Below, one piece after another: positions 5,273-62,559 of a stretch of DNA of 64,000 nt. The notes below the pieces were generated by a model that was given only the letters and a program-made list of their open reading frames with translations, was not told where the DNA came from and searched no databases. The stretch lies in the IMG/VR virus record IMGVR_UViG_3300042894_004439, positions 1 to 64,000 of that record. One strand, given 5' to 3'. The stretch is from a virus. Position numbers and translations under genes: made by a program. Position 1 is the stretch's first letter, and every line of letters starts with the position of its first letter.

Positions 5273-5797
5273 ATGTCAACTCAGCTAATAAAAAAATACC
5301 AATTTCACAAATTCTGGGATGATGAATTTAAACACCTACTGTACCAACATGAGGAATTTAACGATCCTGACAACTTGAAGCTTTGGACTGATGCAGGATA
5401 TCCTAATCGGTTCACCGGTGACATGTGTGATATGCGTAGTCAACAACCTTCATGGAATCAACGATTTGTAGATATGTTTTCGGGCAACGGCTGGAAGGAC
5501 ATTGGCACCAGTTATTATCGAATGAGTACTGGCACAGTATTGCCTACACACAGCGATTTGTACAAAAAATATGTCAAATTGTTCAATCTTCAAGGTCGCG
5601 AACATACCATAAGACGTGCTATAATATTTTTAGAAGATTGGCAACCTGGGCATTACGCCGAGTTGTTAGATGAACCTTTTGTGGGCTGGAGAGCAGGCGC
5701 AGCACTTGAGTGGAGCTATGATGCCGCACACATGGCCGCCAATTTGGGAATCTCTCCTCGATACACATTACAGATTACAGGGCATGTAGATGATTAA
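5273..5797 (+). CDS. 2-oxoglutarate/Fe(II) oxygenase-like protein
   Basis: The 174-aa protein shows a facial-triad pattern: H-x-D in PTHSDLYKKY (middle), a distal His in DAAHMAANLG and an Arg in PRYTLQITG that would bind 2-oxoglutarate. It has the short double-stranded beta-helix length of phage hydroxylases. The substrate is unknown. It overlaps the amidinotransferase start by 8 bp, so the two are translated together and may act on one pathway. A good AAGGA precedes the start. The oxygenase call rests on these motifs only. Confidence 0.6.
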   Translation: MSTQLIKKYQFHKFWDDEFKHLLYQHEEFNDPDNLKLWTDAGYPNRFTGDMCDMRSQQPSWNQRFVDMFSGNGWKDIGTSYYRMSTGTVLPTHSDLYKKYVKLFNLQGREHTIRRAIIFLEDWQPGHYAELLDEPFVGWRAGAALEWSYDAAHMAANLGISPRYTLQITGHVDD

Positions 5798-6713
5798 CAG
5801 TTATAATGAATGGGACCCACTGGAAGAAATAGTAGTGGGGTCAGCAACCTATGCAAATTGGCCGTCCGCTGATCCTGTGTTTGCAAAAGAAAGTTCCAAA
5901 ACTACCTGGACCAAAACACCAGTACCCAGTGGTCCAGTTCCACAATGGATCATTGATGAAACAAATGAAGATTTGGATGTATTGGCTGATACACTAACAA
6001 AATTAGGTATTGTAGTACATCGTCCAACAGAAATAAATTTTCAAGAACGCAACGGCATGTATAACTATTGTCCTAGAGACAGGTTGTTAATTGCAGGATC
6101 CACTGTGATTGATACTGCTGTGTTGTATCCCTGCAGAGACCAAGAAATTCAAGCACTAGATTTTGTAATAAAAAGTGCTAAAAAAGTATTGACCATGCCC
6201 AAAAATTCAGGTTATGTTCTAGACGCTGCAAACATATTACGATTGGGAAAAGACAAATATTTGTTCCTTGAAAGTGCCAGTGGTAATCGTCTCGCATGGC
6301 ACTGGTTGATGGCCAATTTGCCTACCACAACCAGTATGGAACTTTGTAATTTTTATTCAGGCGTGCACATTGACAGCACCATAATGCCTTTGCGAGAAGG
6401 TGTTGTGTTGTTAAATGCCAGCAGAGTTAATAAATCTAATTGCCCACGTGTGTTTGCCGACTGGGAATGTATCTATATAGATGATGTTGTGGCACAAGAT
6501 TTTTATCAGTATCCTTATGCATCAAAATGGATAGGCATGAACATGTTGGTAGTTGATCCCAACACAGTGATAGTGGATGCCGCACAACACAGCTTAATGG
6601 AATTGTTAGCTAGGAAAAATTTTACTGTGATACCCCGTACATTGCGACACAGTAGAACACTAGGTGGCGGCTTTCATTGTGCCACACTGGATCTCCGGAG
6701 ACGTCATGATTAA
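5790..6713 (+). CDS. Amidinotransferase, AGAT family
   Basis: Pentein-fold enzyme that moves the amidino group of arginine to an amine acceptor (glycine in AGAT, inosamine phosphate in aminocyclitol pathways). The 307-aa protein has an N-terminal WDPLEEIVVGSA motif, the catalytic HID (H193, D195) in GVHIDSTIMPL, and the nucleophilic cysteine C297 in GGGFHCATLDLRRR, nearly identical to the human AGAT active-site block. It is shorter than mitochondrial AGAT (about 420) but full length for bacterial relatives. The acceptor cannot be told. It lies in an overlapping run with a 2OG oxygenase and a fibre-like gene. Confidence 0.9.
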   Translation: MINSYNEWDPLEEIVVGSATYANWPSADPVFAKESSKTTWTKTPVPSGPVPQWIIDETNEDLDVLADTLTKLGIVVHRPTEINFQERNGMYNYCPRDRLLIAGSTVIDTAVLYPCRDQEIQALDFVIKSAKKVLTMPKNSGYVLDAANILRLGKDKYLFLESASGNRLAWHWLMANLPTTTSMELCNFYSGVHIDSTIMPLREGVVLLNASRVNKSNCPRVFADWECIYIDDVVAQDFYQYPYASKWIGMNMLVVDPNTVIVDAAQHSLMELLARKNFTVIPRTLRHSRTLGGGFHCATLDLRRRHD

Positions 6714-8333: not shown

Positions 8334-9353
8334 ATGACTACACTACAACGCATAGGTTTTTGTTGCAAATGGCTGAATGATCCTTCTGAATGTGGAGGCA
8401 TGAAAGTCAATGCAAAGGACCGTGAACTGAACGGCAGATCAACTACCATGAGGTGGCTTCGCGAACATGTGGATGAAGCCGAACAACGTCAGTGGGATAT
8501 CATGAATCACAATACTGCAGCCGCTGTGAAAATGATTGAGCGTGTGGCCACTCTGCCTGAAGGTCGCAGAATGGTTCGTCTGGGCAGTGAAATGCTACAG
8601 GGCTACACTGAACCCAGTTGGATTGCGTGGTGGCAACGTCAGGAAATACAAGATCATTGTGCAAAGATATTTGCACCCATTGGTGAAACTGCACGTAGAC
8701 TAGATGTCAGACTGAGTTTTCACCCTGGACAGTTTTGTGTTTTGGCCAGTGAGAATCCTGGCATCGTAAATAGAAGTATACAGGAGTTTGAATATCATGC
8801 AGATATGGTTCGCTGGATGGGATACGGCAAGACTTTCCAGGACTTTAAAATCAACGTACACATCTCGGGTAAACAAGGCCCCGATGGCATTCGCGCTGCC
8901 CTCCAACGTCTTAGCCCCGAAGCAAGAAACTGTATCACCATCGAAAATGACGAAAACGCCTGGGGAATCGACAGCAGTCTCGAACTTGCCCGAGACTGTG
9001 CCCTCGTGCTTGATATACACCACCACTGGATCCGTACAGGAGACTACATTCAATCCTCCGACGATCGAGTTAAAGGCGTAATTGATTCATGGCGCGGTGT
9101 AAGACCTGCCATGCATTATAGTGTCAGCCGAGAAGACTATCTAGTGGGTCATGATGCCACTGAGTTGCCCGACATGCAAGCACTGCTTAACCAAGGTTTC
9201 AAAAAGCAAAAACTACGAGCCCATAGTGACTTCTATTGGAATTCGGCAGTGACCGATTGGGCATTGACCTTTGCTGAAAACTTTGATATTCAATGCGAAG
9301 CCAAGGGTAAAAATCTAGCTAGCCAACAAGTTTATGAACGATATATTGCTTAA
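8334..9353 (+). CDS. uvsE: UV damage endonuclease UvsE/UVDE
   Basis: TIM-barrel endonuclease that nicks 5' of UV photoproducts and starts excision repair. The 339-aa protein is family length and carries the expected blocks: N-terminal RIGFCCKWLN, LSFHPGQFCVLAS (metal His), INVHISGKQG, IENDE (metal Glu), LVLDIHHHW (metal His/Asp) and RAHSDFYWN near the end. It would repair phage DNA after sunlight damage, as expected in surface waters. The promoter -10 lies 5 nt upstream, so the mRNA looks leaderless. Its end overlaps the next gene by 20 bp. Confidence 0.95.
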   Translation: MTTLQRIGFCCKWLNDPSECGGMKVNAKDRELNGRSTTMRWLREHVDEAEQRQWDIMNHNTAAAVKMIERVATLPEGRRMVRLGSEMLQGYTEPSWIAWWQRQEIQDHCAKIFAPIGETARRLDVRLSFHPGQFCVLASENPGIVNRSIQEFEYHADMVRWMGYGKTFQDFKINVHISGKQGPDGIRAALQRLSPEARNCITIENDENAWGIDSSLELARDCALVLDIHHHWIRTGDYIQSSDDRVKGVIDSWRGVRPAMHYSVSREDYLVGHDATELPDMQALLNQGFKKQKLRAHSDFYWNSAVTDWALTFAENFDIQCEAKGKNLASQQVYERYIA

Positions 9354-11741: not shown

Positions 11742-12743
11742 GTGAACAAACTACTAGCAATCTTATTAACCGCAGTCGCTTTATCAGCAAACGCAGACAT
11801 CACAGGCGCTGGCGCTACATTCCCATTCCCAATCTATGCCAAGTGGGCTGAAGGATACAAGAAAGCCACAGGCAACAGTTTGAACTATCAAAGCATTGGT
11901 AGTTCAGGTGGCATTAGACAAATTAACGCAAAGACAGTTGACTTTGGTGCAACAGATGCGCCAGTTAAAGGTGAAGATCTTGACAAGAACGGACAAGTGC
12001 AGTTTCCTGCTATCATAGGCGGAACAGTTCCTGTAGTAAACTTAGATGGTATCAAGCCGGGTGAACTAAAGATTACTGGACCAGTAATGGCAGATGTATT
12101 CATGGGCAACATCATTCGTTGGAATGATCCTCGATTACTAGCATTAAACCCAGGTAAGACATTGCCTAACACTGAAATCACCATTGTTCATCGTGCTGAT
12201 GGTTCAGGTACAACATTTAACTGGACAGACTACTTGAGCACTGTAAGTCCAGAGTGGTTGGCCAAAGTAGGTCGCGGTGCCGCAGTCAAGTGGCCAGCGG
12301 CAAACTCAGTAGGTGGTAAAGGCAACGAAGGTGTTGCTGCCAACGTGAACAGAATCAAAGGTTCGATTGGATATGTAGAATATGCTTATGTTAAAAAGAA
12401 CAACATGACATTCCTACAATTACAAAACCGATCAGGCCGCTATGTCAGTCCAGATGATCTAACATTTGCCGCGGCTGCAGACGGTGCTGATTGGTTCAGT
12501 GTTCCTGGTATGGGACTCAGCATTGTGGACCAACGTAATCCCAATGCTTGGCCTGTTAGTTCAGCCAGTTTCATCATCATGTACAAAGAGCCAAAGAATA
12601 AAACCAATAGTGATGAAGTGCTAAAGTTCTTTGATTGGGCATTTAAGAACGGCAAGAAAGATGCTATGGATTTAGATTATGTACCATTACCGGACAGTTT
12701 AACAAAGCAGATACGTGAACGTGTTTGGACACAAATTAAATAA
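11742..12743 (+). CDS. pstS: Periplasmic phosphate-binding protein PstS
   Basis: High-affinity phosphate-binding subunit of the Pst ABC transporter. 333 aa with a signal peptide (about 1-18, cleaved after SANA), then the mature start DITGAGATFPFPIYAKW, the ligand loops SIGSSGGIRQI and DFGATDAP, and RADGSGTTFNWTDYLS. Length and motifs match cellular PstS. Starts with GTG behind AAGGAG. Phage pstS is known from marine T4-like phages as an auxiliary gene raising phosphate uptake by phosphate-limited hosts; the Pho box upstream supports the same role. A UUCG terminator follows. Confidence 0.97.
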   Translation: MNKLLAILLTAVALSANADITGAGATFPFPIYAKWAEGYKKATGNSLNYQSIGSSGGIRQINAKTVDFGATDAPVKGEDLDKNGQVQFPAIIGGTVPVVNLDGIKPGELKITGPVMADVFMGNIIRWNDPRLLALNPGKTLPNTEITIVHRADGSGTTFNWTDYLSTVSPEWLAKVGRGAAVKWPAANSVGGKGNEGVAANVNRIKGSIGYVEYAYVKKNNMTFLQLQNRSGRYVSPDDLTFAAAADGADWFSVPGMGLSIVDQRNPNAWPVSSASFIIMYKEPKNKTNSDEVLKFFDWAFKNGKKDAMDLDYVPLPDSLTKQIRERVWTQIK

Positions 12744-15742: not shown

Positions 15743-16447
15743 ATGAATGAACTTATTGCCACCTTGGTGATGACACACATCACCATAGTGTGTGTTACTT
15801 TGTATCTACACCGCGGGCAAGCACATCGCGGCATACTTTTTCACCCTGTGCTAGAACACTTCATGCGAGCCTGGCTATGGCTCACCACAGGCATGGTTAC
15901 CAAACAGTGGGTAGCAATACATCGTAAACATCACAGATTCACAGAAGAATCTGGCGATCCACACAGCCCACATGTGTACGGAATTCTTAGAATTTTATTT
16001 CGCGGCGCTGAACTGTATCATTCGGCCAGCAAAGACTCTGAGATGGTGCAACAATATGGCGCAGGCACACCCAACGATTGGCTGGAACAAAACGTATACA
16101 CCAAGCACAGCCGCCTGGGTATCTTGCTCATGTTACTGATAGATCTATTGCTGTTTGGTTATTGGGGCGTGTTAATATGGATTATCCAAATGATATGGAT
16201 CCCATTCTGGGCGGCAGGTGTAATCAATGGGTTAGGACACTGGTGGGGGTATCGAAATGGTGAAACCAAAGATCACAGTAGAAACATTGTTCCTTGGGAC
16301 ATTGTTGTTGGTGGCGAATGCCTGCATAATAACCATCATTTGGATCCTGCTAACCCTCGACTGAGCCGTCGTTGGTTTGAATTTGATGCAGGCTGGATGT
16401 GGATACAAATTTTTAAATTTTCTAGGTTATTGACTTTAAAAAATTAG
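15743..16447 (+). CDS. Acyl-lipid/acyl-CoA fatty-acid desaturase
   Basis: Membrane di-iron desaturase of the DesA/delta-9 type. All three histidine boxes are present: HRGQAH (23-28), HRKHH (60-64) and HNNHH (195-199), with an extra GLGHWW motif between boxes two and three. At 234 aa it is compact but covers the family core, with hydrophobic spans around 2-20, 35-55 and 125-160. It would introduce double bonds into host lipids, altering membrane fluidity. ATG 15743 is preferred over the TTG at 15740. The phasin gene follows. Confidence 0.93.
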   Translation: MNELIATLVMTHITIVCVTLYLHRGQAHRGILFHPVLEHFMRAWLWLTTGMVTKQWVAIHRKHHRFTEESGDPHSPHVYGILRILFRGAELYHSASKDSEMVQQYGAGTPNDWLEQNVYTKHSRLGILLMLLIDLLLFGYWGVLIWIIQMIWIPFWAAGVINGLGHWWGYRNGETKDHSRNIVPWDIVVGGECLHNNHHLDPANPRLSRRWFEFDAGWMWIQIFKFSRLLTLKN

Positions 16448-36921: not shown

Positions 36922-37683
36922 ATGTCACGAATAATAGCGTTTGGAGATAGTTTTGTTGTGGGCGACCAAGATGATTTTGGCCCTGCTGATATAAACTACA
37001 ATCCAAAATTTCCACCAACACACAACATGCCGCCGATTGAAAGAGAAGAATATCTTAAAAACAATGTTAGTTTTGCGGCCATTATTGCAAAAAAATTAAA
37101 TTGCGAATTTCTTAACAAGGCAGGAAGAGGACATAGCAATTTTTACCAGTTGGATAGATTAATGAGAATTATCTACAATGGATTATTAACAGAAAAAGAC
37201 ACAATATTGTTTGGGATTACCACCACCTATAGAGATAGAAGAAGTCTGTCAGTCAATAATAAAGGTATAAATGACAATGGATTAGTAGAAAATCAGAATT
37301 TACGTTTTGTTGAGATATTTGATTTATTTTATATTATATCTGCATTGGATCAAATATCTAAGAAATACAAAGTAAATATAATCAAATTTAATTTATTTGA
37401 TAATCCATTGTATAGTTTTGAAGATCATTTAAATAGTTTTGATAAGATTCTTGAAACTGACAATTTCTTGGGTCATCAGTTTAATAATAATACTCTAGTA
37501 GATATACTCAATGATACTTGGGGGCAAAATTATAATAAAAGGCCACCTTATCACACTGAATTAACAGTATCGGATGCATACAAAAAATATTATACATGGA
37601 ATAATCATCCTTCAATATTGGGACATCAGAAAATTGCAGATTGGTTTTTACAAAATATCAACTGGTCCGATTTAATAAAGTAG
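36922..37683 (+). CDS. SGNH/GDSL hydrolase-like protein
   Basis: 253 aa. Block I is IIAFGDSFVVG (catalytic Ser in GDSF), a Gly is in NKAGRGHSN, and the Asp/His block is NNHPSILGHQKIADW near the end. No signal peptide, so it acts in the cytoplasm or is carried on the virion. SGNH enzymes remove acyl groups from sugars or lipids. One of four in the window (also 47324, 49056, 61708). Confidence 0.8.
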   Translation: MSRIIAFGDSFVVGDQDDFGPADINYNPKFPPTHNMPPIEREEYLKNNVSFAAIIAKKLNCEFLNKAGRGHSNFYQLDRLMRIIYNGLLTEKDTILFGITTTYRDRRSLSVNNKGINDNGLVENQNLRFVEIFDLFYIISALDQISKKYKVNIIKFNLFDNPLYSFEDHLNSFDKILETDNFLGHQFNNNTLVDILNDTWGQNYNKRPPYHTELTVSDAYKKYYTWNNHPSILGHQKIADWFLQNINWSDLIK

Positions 37684-47323: not shown

Positions 47324-47935
47324 TTAAAATTTAAATTTATTTAATAGATAATCGGCTGCTATCCGATGCGAAGATTGTTTTGGATGCGACCCGTTGAATT
47401 CATAATTATTCTTTTTACACCAGGTTAAAAATCCATGATTATCAAACAACACCACACGATTCCAATCAATTAGAATTTTCAATGAACTGATATAATTATC
47501 CGGTTCTGCTAACAAATTACTGGCAATGATATCGTCGTAGTCAAATGTAAACATGTAAGGTATACCACGAGCAACAAGGAATGTCTGTGCTAATATAATT
47601 TCCTTCAAGGATGAAGATATTCCGGTATACTCCCATTGGCCAGGACCTTGATACCAGTGTTCTTCAAATCCGCAACCGGGTTTGTATGTTGCCCTGCTGG
47701 TACCCACCCATCCTTGTTCAGTTCTGAACTCGTGTCGTATAGTTGTTGTCCAATCCACCAGCACAAAATCATCAGATTCGTAGCTTTGGTATAACACCAT
47801 TCTGGCAATTTTGTGATTGGAATTGACAGGTTTGATTCGTGACACATAATCACGAGACAGATGTGTTGCTATCAACTCTGGAAATGAGTTTTTTTCCATT
47901 ATAATACTGGATCCAAATGCAACAAGTCTAGACAT
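47324..47935 (-). CDS. SGNH hydrolase-like protein
   Basis: 203 aa. Block I is LVAFGSSIIM (GSS instead of GDS), and the end has FNGSHPKQSSHRIAADYLL with the Asp/Ser-His region. It lies 1 bp behind the ANL gene on the same strand, with AAAGGT 7 bp before ATG 47935. The pair suggests that an adenylated or thioesterified acyl group is made and then transferred or hydrolysed. Confidence 0.65.
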   Translation of the reverse strand: MSRLVAFGSSIIMEKNSFPELIATHLSRDYVSRIKPVNSNHKIARMVLYQSYESDDFVLVDWTTTIRHEFRTEQGWVGTSRATYKPGCGFEEHWYQGPGQWEYTGISSSLKEIILAQTFLVARGIPYMFTFDYDDIIASNLLAEPDNYISSLKILIDWNRVVLFDNHGFLTWCKKNNYEFNGSHPKQSSHRIAADYLLNKFKF

Positions 47936-47936
47936 A

Positions 47937-49016
47937 CTAATACCTTTCATTTAACCAGATTCGAGAAATTTTTCCAGACGGACTCACTGGTATCAAGTCA
48001 ATCTGTTCTAGCACTCGTGGCCAACAATGTTGTCCTAGGCCAATTAAAAAATCTTTAATGGTCTGTGAATCACAGGTGCCAGTGTACAAACACTTGACAC
48101 AATCTGTGCCAAAAATCACACAGTCTGTGAGATTGTCAATGTTGGATTTCAGTTGATATTCCAAGCTCACTGGATTAACTTTGATGCCGCGAACATTGAT
48201 TTGATCTTTGCTGCGCCCTAATATACGATAATATCCAGCCTCATCACGATCGGCCAAATCGCCAGTGTCGTACCATCCAGGAGCAAACACAGTAGAACCT
48301 TGAATGTAGAGATGTCCGTCCACAATATCAGCTTCTATTCCGTCGGGCAAACCCACAGTGCCCGGTCGTTGTTCTCCATGCAAAGGATTGGTAAAACATT
48401 GACTCAAGGACTCAGTCATACCAAATGCTTCTATCACAGGCACCTGATATTTTTCTGACAGATGCTGATACAATTCCGTGGGCAAAGCCGCACTGGCAGA
48501 TCTTATAAATCTCAAATGATCAAAATCCATTTGAGAAATAACTCGTAAAAAATCAGGAATAGCACTGATAAAAGTTGGATCATAGTCAGGCATGGACTTG
48601 ATATTTTTTACAGGCATATAGTGTATTTCGCACCGGGCCTGTTGTATAGCCCAATACATTCCTTGTCCGTGTGCATGCCACAGAGGCATTATGCTGACAT
48701 ACCGATCATTTGCAGTGATATCATAGGCAGAACAGATTCGCTGAGCCAATGTATTCACTTGATCTTGAGTAAAACTACAAAACTTGCTGTCTCCGGTGGT
48801 ACCACTGGTATACCAAAGCAAGCGTTCGTTGCAGTAGTCCGCACCGTCTCTGTAGCTTTCACCTTGGTTGGTGATTAATAAACTATAGTCAGCATTGTCT
48901 AATAAATATTTTTGTCTTGATGCAGCCGCATCAGGATTGATGATCATGATACTGTAATCATCTAATTGATTGATATAATCCTGAGGGTTGTTTGCACAAA
49001 TAACTGCTCGTTTCAT
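47937..49016 (-). CDS. ANL-superfamily adenylate-forming enzyme
   Basis: 359 aa; activates a carboxylic acid as acyl-AMP. Core motifs are all present: LLWYTSGTTGDSKF (A3 P-loop), MPLWHAHGQGMY, EAFGMTES (A5), GWYDTGDLADR (A7), GRSKDQINVRGIKVNP (A8) and PSGKISR (A10, catalytic Lys). It is shorter than acyl-CoA synthetases (about 500) because most of the N-terminal domain is missing. No carrier-protein domain is fused. Acceptor could be CoA, a carrier protein or an amine. Adenylating enzymes of this class are rare in phages. Confidence 0.93.
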   Translation of the reverse strand: MKRAVICANNPQDYINQLDDYSIMIINPDAAASRQKYLLDNADYSLLITNQGESYRDGADYCNERLLWYTSGTTGDSKFCSFTQDQVNTLAQRICSAYDITANDRYVSIMPLWHAHGQGMYWAIQQARCEIHYMPVKNIKSMPDYDPTFISAIPDFLRVISQMDFDHLRFIRSASAALPTELYQHLSEKYQVPVIEAFGMTESLSQCFTNPLHGEQRPGTVGLPDGIEADIVDGHLYIQGSTVFAPGWYDTGDLADRDEAGYYRILGRSKDQINVRGIKVNPVSLEYQLKSNIDNLTDCVIFGTDCVKCLYTGTCDSQTIKDFLIGLGQHCWPRVLEQIDLIPVSPSGKISRIWLNERY

Positions 49017-49055: not shown

Positions 49056-49766
49056 ATGACAACTAAAAAAATTATAGGATTTGGCGATAGTTTTGTCTAT
49101 GGCTCAGAACAAGAAAACAACGACGACGGATCTTTGGGATGGCCGGGTCGCGTTGCCAACAATTTAAATTGTGAATATCATACTAGGGCAAACTCCGGAT
49201 GTGGGAACGATTACATTGCACAGCAAATTTATTCTTGGTTTGCACAAAATCCAGTTGAAGACACCTTGGCAGTTATAAACTGGACTTGGATCAGTCGTTG
49301 GGATTATTATGTTTTTGACCATAAAACTTGGATTACCTTTGGCCCTACTTGTGTGCCAGCACGTCTTAAAGACTTGGTAGACCGCACTCAGGCTAAAGAA
49401 ATGGTCGAGTTTTATCATTCACGAATCAATGCTGGCATACTATGGAATAAATTACGAAATTTACAAATAATATATGCGGCACAATCATATATGAAACAAA
49501 AAAATATCAATTGCATACAAACCTACATGGATTATGACATGTTTGATATTTCTTGTGAACACAAGGATTTGACTCCCGATTACATCAACGAACTGCAAAA
49601 ACTAGTATATCCAGAACTAGAATTATTTGAAGGGCAAAATTTTGTAGACTGGTCCAGAAAAAATGGATTTTTTGTGTCCAAGGGAGGAATGCATCCATTG
49701 GAAGATGCACACATTGCCGCGGCAGCTCTGTGGCAAAACCGATATGCAAATGCACTAGGCGCATAA
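49056..49766 (+). CDS. SGNH hydrolase-like protein
   Basis: 236 aa. IIGFGDSFVYGSEQ (catalytic Ser), NSGCGNDYIAQQI (block III Asn) and the end KGGMHPLEDAHIAAAAL (block V His). Divergent from the ANL/SGNH pair across 39 bp. Similar to the 36922 protein in its start and size. Cytoplasmic or virion-carried; substrate unknown. Confidence 0.8.
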   Translation: MTTKKIIGFGDSFVYGSEQENNDDGSLGWPGRVANNLNCEYHTRANSGCGNDYIAQQIYSWFAQNPVEDTLAVINWTWISRWDYYVFDHKTWITFGPTCVPARLKDLVDRTQAKEMVEFYHSRINAGILWNKLRNLQIIYAAQSYMKQKNINCIQTYMDYDMFDISCEHKDLTPDYINELQKLVYPELELFEGQNFVDWSRKNGFFVSKGGMHPLEDAHIAAAALWQNRYANALGA

Positions 49767-49774: not shown

Positions 49775-50329
49775 ATGCACTACGAAATACGACAAGATTT
49801 AAATCTAGTAGAGGCCAGTACACGGCCTGCCAAGCTGGAAACTACACCGCTGCCTTACGGTGAGAAAGACCTGGAGCCAGTATTGAGTAAAGAAAGTTTA
49901 GAATACCATTACGGGCATTTGGCCAAAGGCTATGCAAAGCGTTACAACGCAGGCGAAGGCAACGCAGATTTTAATCGTGCTGGTAGCTTTTTACACAACA
50001 AATTCTTTCCGCAATTGCGCCCGCCCAAAGGCGCCAACCGGCCACGGGGTGCGGTGCTGGCCTTAATTGAAGAGAATTTTAAAACCTATGAAGATTTTAA
50101 AATTGCAGTTAAAGAAACAGCAATGAAAATTCAAGGTTCTGGATGGGTGTATTTGAGCACCAATGGCACAATTAAAACTATACCCAACCATGCTGTTCGC
50201 ACAGACATTTGTGTGCTGATTGATTGGTGGGAGCATGTTTGGGCCACTGATTATCAGTGGGACAAAGAAAAATACCTGGATAATATTTGGAAGATTATCG
50301 ACTGGGATGTTTGTAACGAAAGACTATGA
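49775..50329 (+). CDS. sodB: Fe/Mn superoxide dismutase
   Basis: Converts superoxide to peroxide and oxygen. 184 aa, family length with a slightly long N-terminus. The four metal ligands are visible: His in [11 protein letters not shown], His in [12 protein letters not shown], and Asp/His in [14 protein letters not shown] (usual form DVWEHAYYxDY); GSGWVYLS is also typical. ATG 49775 is chosen; the longer GTG frame has no support. It overlaps erpA by 4 bp, so both are made together. Confidence 0.95.
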
Positions 50330-50652
50330 TGACACTGACTGAATCAGCTACAACTAGGATACAAGACCTTATTGCAGAAGAAGGTAATCCTGCACTTAAA
50401 CTGCGTGTATTTGTACAAGGTGGCGGATGCTCCGGTATGCAATACGGCTTTACTTTTGACGAAGTTGCCAACGAAGATGATTGGGATCTTGAATTCAACG
50501 GTGTCAAAGTACTGGTGGATTCAATGAGCGGCCAATATTTAACTGGTGCAACTGTAGATTTCAAAGAAGATCTACACGGCAGTAGTTTTGTTATTCAAAA
50601 TCCCAACGCAGAAACCACCTGTGGCTGCGGCAGCAGTTTTAGTCCAACCTAA
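50326..50652 (+). CDS. erpA: A-type iron-sulfur carrier, ErpA/IscA family
   Basis: 108 aa with the three cluster-binding cysteines: [11 protein letters not shown] (C36 region) and TTCGCGSSF near the end. Delivers [Fe-S] clusters to apo-enzymes. [13 protein letters not shown] and [16 protein letters not shown] match ErpA/IscA. Coupled to sodB; the radical SAM enzymes of the phage need such clusters, and oxidative stress destroys them, so the pairing makes sense. Confidence 0.93.
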
Positions 50653-60469: not shown

Positions 60470-61387
60470 ATGAAAGCGTTATGGACAGAGTTGTATAGGC
60501 CCAACACACTAGATGGCTATGTATTTAAAGATACCGCACAACGAGAACAAATAGAAAGTTGGGTACGAGAAGGATCAATTCCGCATTTGTTATTTTCTGG
60601 TGCGCCTGGCGTAGGAAAAACCACACTGGCTAAAATTTTAATTAATCTACTAGACATTGACACATATGACGTCCTGGAAATCAATGCCAGTCGAGAAAAT
60701 TCAGTGGACACAATTCGTGACAAGATCACAGGATTTGTACAGACCATGCCATTTGGCCAATTCAAAGTGGTACTGTTAGACGAAGCAGATTATATCACAC
60801 CCAATGGGCAAGCAGCTCTACGCGGAGTCATGGAAACATATCATGCGTCGGCTCGATTCATACTTACTTGCAATTACCCTAATCGGGTTATTCCTGCTCT
60901 GCACAGTCGGTGTCAAGGATTTCACATTGACAGAATTGATCTCACTGAATTTACTGCTCGTATTGCCACTGTTCTTGTGGAGGAACATGTGGAGTTTGAG
61001 TTAGATACCCTAGACACTTATGTGAGATCAACTTATCCAGATTTGCGTAAATGCTTAAACACCTGTCAGATGAATTCTACCACAGGTACATTGATAGCGC
61101 CACAAAATACTGGCGTCGGATCACAAGACTGGAAATTGTCAGCAGTAGATTTGTTTAAAACAGGTCGCATACTTGAAGCTCGAAAGCTCATGTGTGCTAA
61201 TGCTCGAGCAGAAGAAATGGAAGAAATGTTTCGTTGGTTGTATGACAATTTAGATCTTTGGGGGAAAGACCAAGAAACACAGGATCAAGCAATTATCATT
61301 ATTCGTCAAGGATACGTTAATGTTCCATTGGTGGCGGATCAAGAGATAAATTTGAGCGCAACATTATGTGAGTTGTCAAGACTATGA
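60470..61387 (+). CDS. Clamp-loader ATPase (T4 gp44-like)
   Basis: AAA+ subunit that opens and loads the sliding clamp. 305 aa, close to T4 gp44 (319). LWTELYRPNTLDGYVF (RFC box II), GAPGVGKTTLAKIL Walker A (about 46-59), VLLDEADY Walker B, the SRC arginine-finger motif in LHSRCQGF, and a helical C-terminal collar domain. The RFC-like SRC motif separates it from bacterial DnaX. It shows that the phage replicates with a T4-type holoenzyme. Confidence 0.95.
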   Translation: MKALWTELYRPNTLDGYVFKDTAQREQIESWVREGSIPHLLFSGAPGVGKTTLAKILINLLDIDTYDVLEINASRENSVDTIRDKITGFVQTMPFGQFKVVLLDEADYITPNGQAALRGVMETYHASARFILTCNYPNRVIPALHSRCQGFHIDRIDLTEFTARIATVLVEEHVEFELDTLDTYVRSTYPDLRKCLNTCQMNSTTGTLIAPQNTGVGSQDWKLSAVDLFKTGRILEARKLMCANARAEEMEEMFRWLYDNLDLWGKDQETQDQAIIIIRQGYVNVPLVADQEINLSATLCELSRL

Positions 61388-61707: not shown

Positions 61708-62559
61708 ATGAGTTATTTTAATTTATTAGTCAAAATACACAAGAATCTTTCATCTCCAGCAAGATCGTGGTATCATGAATCATTGCACAATAAAGACACT
61801 TTGTTAATCACAGCTGGGGACAGTTGGACCTGGGGAGATAGTCTTTTTGACATTGACGCCGAAGCTGGTAAGCAAGATCATCCTGACAGAGTTAATAAAA
61901 TATATGGTGCATTGCTAGCGAAAAAACTAGATGCTGATTTTATCAATCTTGCCAAGTGTGCCGGTGCCAATATAGAGTTTTGTGATTGGGTAAAAAGTCT
62001 TTTACCAATGGTTGAAACAAAATATAAAAAGATTATTGTGGCAATTACTCTCACCGAGAACTGCCGAGAAGCACATTGGGATAGAGTTTGGGTTCCTGAA
62101 GAGCAGCCCAGTCTTGAAGAATATTTGTGTGAATACGAAAAAAATATGTTTGAGAATCTTGCTCAGACATTCAAGCAACACAGTTCAATTCAATTTGTAG
62201 TTTCTAGAAACTTTACCTACAGTTTTGACAGTAACATTTCGGTACTCAAGGATTATCTCACTGAAAAAATCTGGGTCGATTGTTTAGCCGAGTATCAGAG
62301 CAATCAAGATTATCCCACTGATGTTAGGTTTCTTTCTAGTATTGCACTGGTGCCATTGCACAAGCTACTCAAAGATATTGACCTATATAAAAAATATAAA
62401 TTTCAATTTATGAGTTTATATGCCAGCAGTGAGTTGGCAATCTCATGGTTAGAGAAAAGTAAGTTGAATTACCAAAAAGCCACAAAACACCCAACCGAAC
62501 TTGGGCATGAGATTTGGGCAGATTATCTATACAATACAATCACTGCCCGTTTGCATTGA
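61708..62559 (+). CDS. SGNH hydrolase-like protein
   Basis: 283 aa. Block I LLITAGDSWTWGDSLF (catalytic Ser), INLAKCAGANIEF (Gly/Asn), and a C-terminal KHPTELGHEIWADYL with the catalytic His. No signal peptide. The longest of the four SGNH proteins. The following HAD gene has its own promoter, which begins at the end of this gene. Confidence 0.8.
   Translation: MSYFNLLVKIHKNLSSPARSWYHESLHNKDTLLITAGDSWTWGDSLFDIDAEAGKQDHPDRVNKIYGALLAKKLDADFINLAKCAGANIEFCDWVKSLLPMVETKYKKIIVAITLTENCREAHWDRVWVPEEQPSLEEYLCEYEKNMFENLAQTFKQHSSIQFVVSRNFTYSFDSNISVLKDYLTEKIWVDCLAEYQSNQDYPTDVRFLSSIALVPLHKLLKDIDLYKKYKFQFMSLYASSELAISWLEKSKLNYQKATKHPTELGHEIWADYLYNTITARLH

Follow-up and report, generated by a model that had tools for sequence, protein, structure and literature searches.

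A phage-restricted family of miniature ANL enzymes with a facultative SGNH-like operon partner

A phage record in IMG/VR encodes a miniature acid-activating enzyme of the ANL superfamily, followed in the same short operon by an SGNH-like gene. The catalytic motifs of this ANL are intact and conserved, its family is restricted to phages and has no close cellular relatives, and its genetic linkage to certain neighbours is recurrent. What is new, within the known ANL superfamily, is this miniature phage-only family and the SGNH-like gene that some of its members have as an operon partner. The literature searched, the coverage of which was incomplete, described neither the family nor any pairing of ANL and SGNH genes in phages.

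In the reading favoured here, to which we give a probability of roughly 0.4, the ANL is a minimal acid:CoA ligase that activates a small polar acid; a carbohydrate receives the acyl group, which is also what the SGNH-like protein works on. The ANL would use ATP to convert a small polar carboxylic acid to acyl-AMP and then, with CoA from the host and no carrier protein, to acyl-CoA, from which the acyl group would pass to a carbohydrate, on one of its hydroxyls or amines. The SGNH-like protein of the operon would employ a Ser-His dyad to act on that group, either as an esterase or as an O-acyltransferase. Elsewhere among the phages that position is taken by a hexapeptide acyltransferase and by a mini-DegT aminotransferase, the latter a putative maker of the amino sugar, and in some a solute-binding protein encoded beside the ANL may help to bring the acid in. 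Counted against this scheme are the facultative nature of the linkage to any single partner and the multiple SGNH-like copies in this phage.

At 83,174 bp the phage record is a fragment, perhaps of a larger genome; the window, meaning the whole stretch analysed, comprises the first 64,000 nucleotides of the record. Its clamp loader gene, 60470-61384(+), is 54.6% identical to the counterpart in PA5oct-like Pseudomonas jumbo phages. The ANL and SGNH-like genes stand alone as a pair on the minus strand, surrounded by plus-strand genes in a block that runs from about 27.3 to 63.2 kb, and GC content over the pair is slightly above that of the upstream DNA and not distinctive. The SGNH-like gene has two possible starts, 47950, which overlaps the ANL, and 47935. 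Since relatives use the methionine equivalent to 47935, a gap of 1 bp separates it from the ANL stop, and the open reading frames and spacing of the earlier note are exact. In several relatives the two genes overlap by 4 nt. The features discussed below are as follows.

47937-49016, minus strand: miniature ANL gene (acyl-CoA synthetase-type), 359 aa; Pfam AMP-binding, E 5.6e-26
48783-48809, minus strand: A3/P-loop motif TSGTTGDSK, aa 70-78; invariant in the 52-member alignment
48411-48425, minus strand: A5 motif FGMTE, aa 198-202; invariant in the same alignment
48171-48218, minus strand: A8 hinge region GRSKDQINVRGIKVNP, aa 267-282; R268, D271, G277, K279 and P282 invariant
47961-47975, minus strand: A10 motif GKISR with the predicted catalytic lysine K349; invariant in the same alignment
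47324-47935, minus strand: SGNH-like gene, 203 aa; block I Ser and block V His, from alignments of relatives
49056-49766, plus strand: divergent SGNH-like gene, 236 aa; GDS motif and block V HP
49071-49099, minus strand: promoter-like TAGACA-17-TATAAT upstream of the ANL; a consensus match only

The miniature ANL, its family and its predicted substrate

By every motif tested (A3, A5, A7/A8, A10), the window protein belongs to the ANL superfamily. An alignment of this protein with 51 relatives (n = 52), which are 50-71% identical to it over the full length, shows that the completeness of the catalytic motifs claimed from the single sequence extends to the whole set, with the TGD positions T251 and D253 likewise invariant. 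A strand resembling MKRAV[LI]CV opens nearly all of the aligned relatives. The N-terminal half is short throughout. The P-loop begins at residue 69-71 in 53 phage members as compared to 170-178 in the nearest cellular ANLs, so that the N-terminal domain is about 100 aa shorter ahead of this loop, and the span from the P-loop to the end of A10 measures 282-285 residues as compared to 327, a further difference of about 43 aa. The shortened domain that had been remarked in one protein is therefore a family trait and no local defect. An AlphaFold2 model (pLDDT 89) analysed with Foldseek has the large N-terminal and small C-terminal domains of the superfamily fold. Our reading is that the phage protein is probably a minimal acid:CoA ligase peculiar to phages, with its catalysis intact. 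If active, it would be among the smallest complete ANL enzymes and would show how large a part of the N-terminal domain such an enzyme can do without.

The family is widespread among viral sequences. A scan of 2.9 million viral contigs returned 82 relatives and a profile scan 116, meaning that at least 116 IMG/VR stretches encode the family. Degradation of the gene in relatives, which the earlier note had named as a refuting outcome, is not seen: in addition to the invariant motifs, the median dN/dS over 53 close pairs is 0.10. Among 84,980 cellular genomes the best relatives are 28% identical, and the two cellular open reading frames examined, at 510 and 518 aa, are of normal ANL length. A close cellular homologue, as expected of an auxiliary metabolic gene shared with the host, is thus missing from these genomes, and the ANL does not resemble a recently captured host gene. 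Matches in INPHARED (36 by tblastn, all at or below 32% identity) were set aside, most being bacterial-looking sequence in phage-labelled contigs. BFVD holds one family member, A0A6J7WHT9 from an uncultured Caudovirales phage, which at 359 aa, 62% identity and a TM score of 0.88 belongs to the same family as the window protein. It carries the automatic label 'Acs' with no described function or family, and the ANL family is therefore known only by that label.

The nearest characterized enzymes are acid:CoA ligases. With the ANL model, Foldseek retrieved 625 PDB chains at E<=0.001, led by the AtAAE3 oxalyl-CoA synthetase (E 7.7e-27). The sequence matched 93 PDB chains, again with oxalyl-CoA synthetase at the top, and the family profile also found this enzyme as its best PDB match (E 7e-40). 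The oxalyl-CoA synthetases AtAAE3 and ScPcs60 (PDB 5ie3, 8aff) have their catalytic motifs in common with the phage ANL, which is only about 24% identical to them and about 145 aa shorter. The next structural group is the malonyl-CoA synthetase MatB (PDB 4fuq, 4fut), an enzyme for a small dicarboxylate; identity is about 20%, and the phage protein lacks about 100 aa ahead of the P-loop. Another colinear protein is the short, 414-aa acyl-CoA synthetase of NCBIfam NF006167 (PRK08308), with profile positions 35-405 aligning to ANL residues 4-353. Membership in that family was rejected at 53 bits against a cut-off of 513, and the best 25 NCBIfam matches place the ANL in no curated equivalog.

Residues H214, S289 and H319 of AtAAE3, which we take to be the oxalate ligands lining its pocket, align with invariant H114, S175 and S205 of the phage family. 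With two of these three positions kept, the third His replaced by Ser, and an overall identity of about 24%, the ANL was not identified as an oxalyl-CoA synthetase. The segment behind FGMTE is polar, reading SHCFTNP in most relatives and SQCFTNP in the window protein. Together, the pocket correspondences and this segment suggest a small polar acid, which we consider somewhat more likely than not, and the acid is probably not oxalate. As for the acyl acceptor, the statement in the earlier note that no carrier-protein gene is seen extends beyond the window: a PP-binding domain (PF00550) is absent from the record, itself a fragment, and of the 30 ANL-bearing records, among them many fragments, a single one has it. 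A non-ribosomal peptide synthetase-type or ACP-dependent adenylation was rejected on this count. The missing carrier in 29 of the 30 records favours CoA or direct transfer, and on the nearest relatives by sequence and fold CoA is the likely acceptor.

Recurrent neighbours and the fate of the acyl group

Gene neighbourhoods were compared at 55 non-redundant ANL loci, which are not fully independent, with expectations taken from the other genes of the same loci. Two kinds of gene recur within three genes of the ANL: a mini-DegT aminotransferase (23 loci; expected 9.0) and a hexapeptide acyltransferase (17 loci; expected 9.8). Directly adjoining the ANL are a DUF2061 small membrane protein in 14 loci (2.2 expected; for example L007:512-733), a TctC-type solute-binding protein in 11 (1.9 expected) and an NMO-family protein in 7 (1.3 expected). 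The ANL-bearing loci with DegT resemble the tetronate/perosamine genes of Vibrio cholerae O1, which combine an acid-activating enzyme, a DegT aminotransferase for amino-sugar synthesis and a hexapeptide transferase. The Vibrio cholerae pathway differs in using a carrier protein.

The mini-DegT was also tried as an obligate partner and rejected, with only 4 of 77 mini-DegT loci containing the ANL. It is a much wider phage family and hence a facultative partner. This mini-DegT/StrS protein, of about 195-220 aa, occurs in more than 600 viral contigs (L014, L037, L054 and others); it covers positions 20-96 and 163-238 of a 360-position profile, conserves the PLP lysine and Asp, and is modelled at pLDDT 90. 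It is often found near amidinotransferase-like and small dioxygenase-like genes, a set resembling parts of a guanidino-cyclitol pathway. Genes of the kinds that adjoin it in other phages are present in the window as well, where a dioxygenase-like gene, 5273-5797(+), overlaps an amidinotransferase-like gene, 5790-6713(+), the latter with no Pfam match. No DegT gene was found in the record itself.

The earlier note had proposed that an acyl or aminoacyl group is added to a glycan, nucleotide or signal molecule. The glycan part is plausible in light of the recurrent mini-DegT and hexapeptide neighbours and of what the record encodes, namely a GT4 glycosyltransferase and, close to its TctC gene (68927-69664; L231:4804-5781), a sulfotransferase (L231:5778-6407) and an APS kinase-like protein (L231:7677-8480), a pair for which PAPS-dependent sulfation is possible. 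A carbohydrate as the final acceptor is given a chance just short of even. Given the recurrent partners, one can test whether the activation of a particular small acid serves large phages in acylating surfaces or metabolites. A still broader proposal is a phage pathway driven by an acyl-CoA synthetase family of the smallest class, specific to viruses and with an acid of its own: a carboxylate would be imported, activated and then attached, on the surface of the virion or the host, to a polysaccharide or an amino sugar, by miniaturised enzymes (mini-ANL, mini-DegT) and SGNH-type acyl handlers. This we regard as rather unlikely in its entirety.

The TctC and CoA-chemistry genes leave room for catabolism, and the main alternative is that the ANL is a catabolic auxiliary metabolic gene. 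The phage would then raise the uptake of an environmental carboxylate, through the solute-binding protein, and its activation with CoA, for the host to burn in the course of infection, and the SGNH-like protein would be an accessory esterase that releases the acid. Apart from the excess of adjacent TctC genes, TctC is present in 14 of 28 ANL-bearing records, this one included, and in three loci (L034, L036, L176) the ANL is beside or near an SDR protein, a BKACE protein (E 4e-90) and a PP-loop-like protein named by sequence motif only, with DctP or TctC in two of the three. A PstS-like phosphate-binding protein is also encoded in the window. Such a role is at odds with the DegT, hexapeptide and SGNH neighbours, at least in any simple form; the BKACE and SDR neighbours are confined to those three loci, and next to the ANL the binding protein stands alone, no transporter being seen there. 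Catabolism is accordingly judged unlikely, albeit ahead of every other alternative. The BKACE/SDR grouping is in itself an instance of CoA chemistry in a phage. The DctP-type proteins next to or near the ANL (L176:4592-5563, L036:6953-7927) have no visible signal peptide, and the PstS-like protein, 11742-12743(+) (PBP_like_2, 1.5e-34), has one by eye.

A second alternative dispenses with CoA: an amine would attack the acyl-AMP, leading to direct aminoacylation or amide formation on a nucleotide, a DNA base or a small molecule. It fits the missing carrier protein and the position of the ANL near a T4-like DNA polymerase gene in many relatives, some of these loci also containing a PTPS (QueD-type) protein. 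However, the ANL is also found away from the polymerase, a TGT-family base-exchange enzyme is absent from 32 records, and CoA ligases are the nearest relatives by both sequence and fold. CoA-independent chemistry is therefore improbable.

The SGNH-like partner

The name 'SGNH hydrolase' applied earlier to the two window genes rests on their motifs. The 47324 protein has no Pfam or PDB match, the 49056 protein scores below the cut-off of Pfam Lipase_GDSL_2 (E 0.04; 14.8 bits against 32.9), and PDB profile searches with the two SGNH-like families gave chance matches only. The two proteins are related to each other (hhalign probability 98.3, E 1e-14), and Pfam DUF6071 matches 12 of 25 SGNH-likes. 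Like SGNH/GDSL hydrolases and DUF6071 proteins, the SGNH-likes feature a block I GDS/GSS Ser and a block V HP His, both of which are found in the two window proteins; they differ in scoring below cut-off with GDSL models, and the two window proteins do not conserve the DxxH Asp. In the set of 25 SGNH-likes the Ser and the His covary, with both present in 19 and neither in 6, supporting a Ser-His dyad in most of them, including both window proteins. The other six have Cys in place of Ser and no His, which suggests that activity was lost or its use changed. In three loci (L037, L040, L043), an SGNH-like protein without either residue directly adjoins the ANL; SGNH catalysis is thus not essential wherever the pair exists. 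The 47324 protein has no signal peptide visible by eye.

Across the 55 loci an SGNH-like gene is adjacent to the ANL in 19 (2.8 expected), and in 14 it is directly downstream on the same strand (0.7 expected). Mapped on the ANL tree, this adjacency requires 12 changes, at least seven of them forced by well-supported branches, so the association was gained or lost repeatedly. An independent scan found the 47324-type gene on 12 contigs, directly behind this ANL in all 12. The pair is found, among others, in loci like that of the window, beside a T4-like DNA polymerase gene, inside a recombination-nuclease operon (L012, L035) and in a glycosyltransferase island (L037, L040, L043, L045), and in L025 and L032 an SGNH gene is also divergent from the ANL. 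As to the conservation of the pair, on which its significance had been made to depend, the pairing recurs in part of the loci and the remainder have no adjacent SGNH gene. The ANL-SGNH link is real but facultative.

It could be, then, that the SGNH neighbour is incidental, SGNH-likes being abundant cargo and the ANL working alone. This would agree with the majority of the 55 loci having no adjacent SGNH gene, with the six SGNH-likes lacking Ser and His, and with how often such genes occur in the 83-kb record, which has six or more (36922, 47324, 49056 and 61708, with another two to three in 64001-83174). The excess of adjacencies, above all of those downstream on the same strand, the 12 of 12 contigs and the seven or more changes on the tree argue against it, and an incidental neighbour is about as doubtful as the CoA-independent chemistry above. 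That the SGNH-like protein acts on the acyl group of the ANL, as the favoured ligase reading has it, we put at somewhat under even odds. The divergent second SGNH gene, in which the earlier note saw a further member of a pathway, is present and related to 47324, but, being one of at least six such genes, it does little to support a dedicated pathway. Apart from the pair there are at least four further copies, 36922-37683(+) and 61708-62559(+) in the window and, in the remainder of the record (64001-83174), L231:750-1460, L231:2630-3358 and L231:8532-9434. The first of the latter has GDG for GDS, as would be expected of a multi-copy family in which some members have decayed.

Finally, it is very improbable that the two genes serve, as had been suggested, to produce an inhibitor directed at the host or at rival phages: an isolated two-gene minus-strand unit in a plus-strand block is an arrangement common to many phage accessory genes, but nothing else was found in its favour, PADLOC giving no match and no toxin or export gene lying nearby.

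Several other genes of the window merit mention. Just past the divergent SGNH gene is an Fe/Mn superoxide dismutase-like gene, 49775-50329(+), which overlaps an IscA/ErpA-type Fe-S biosynthesis gene, 50326-50652(+). Elsewhere, the window encodes a UvdE-type UV endonuclease, 8334-9353(+) (PF03851, 4.8e-31), and a membrane fatty-acid desaturase, 15743-16447(+) (PF00487, 2.2e-14), a second such desaturase being found near the ANL in L062.
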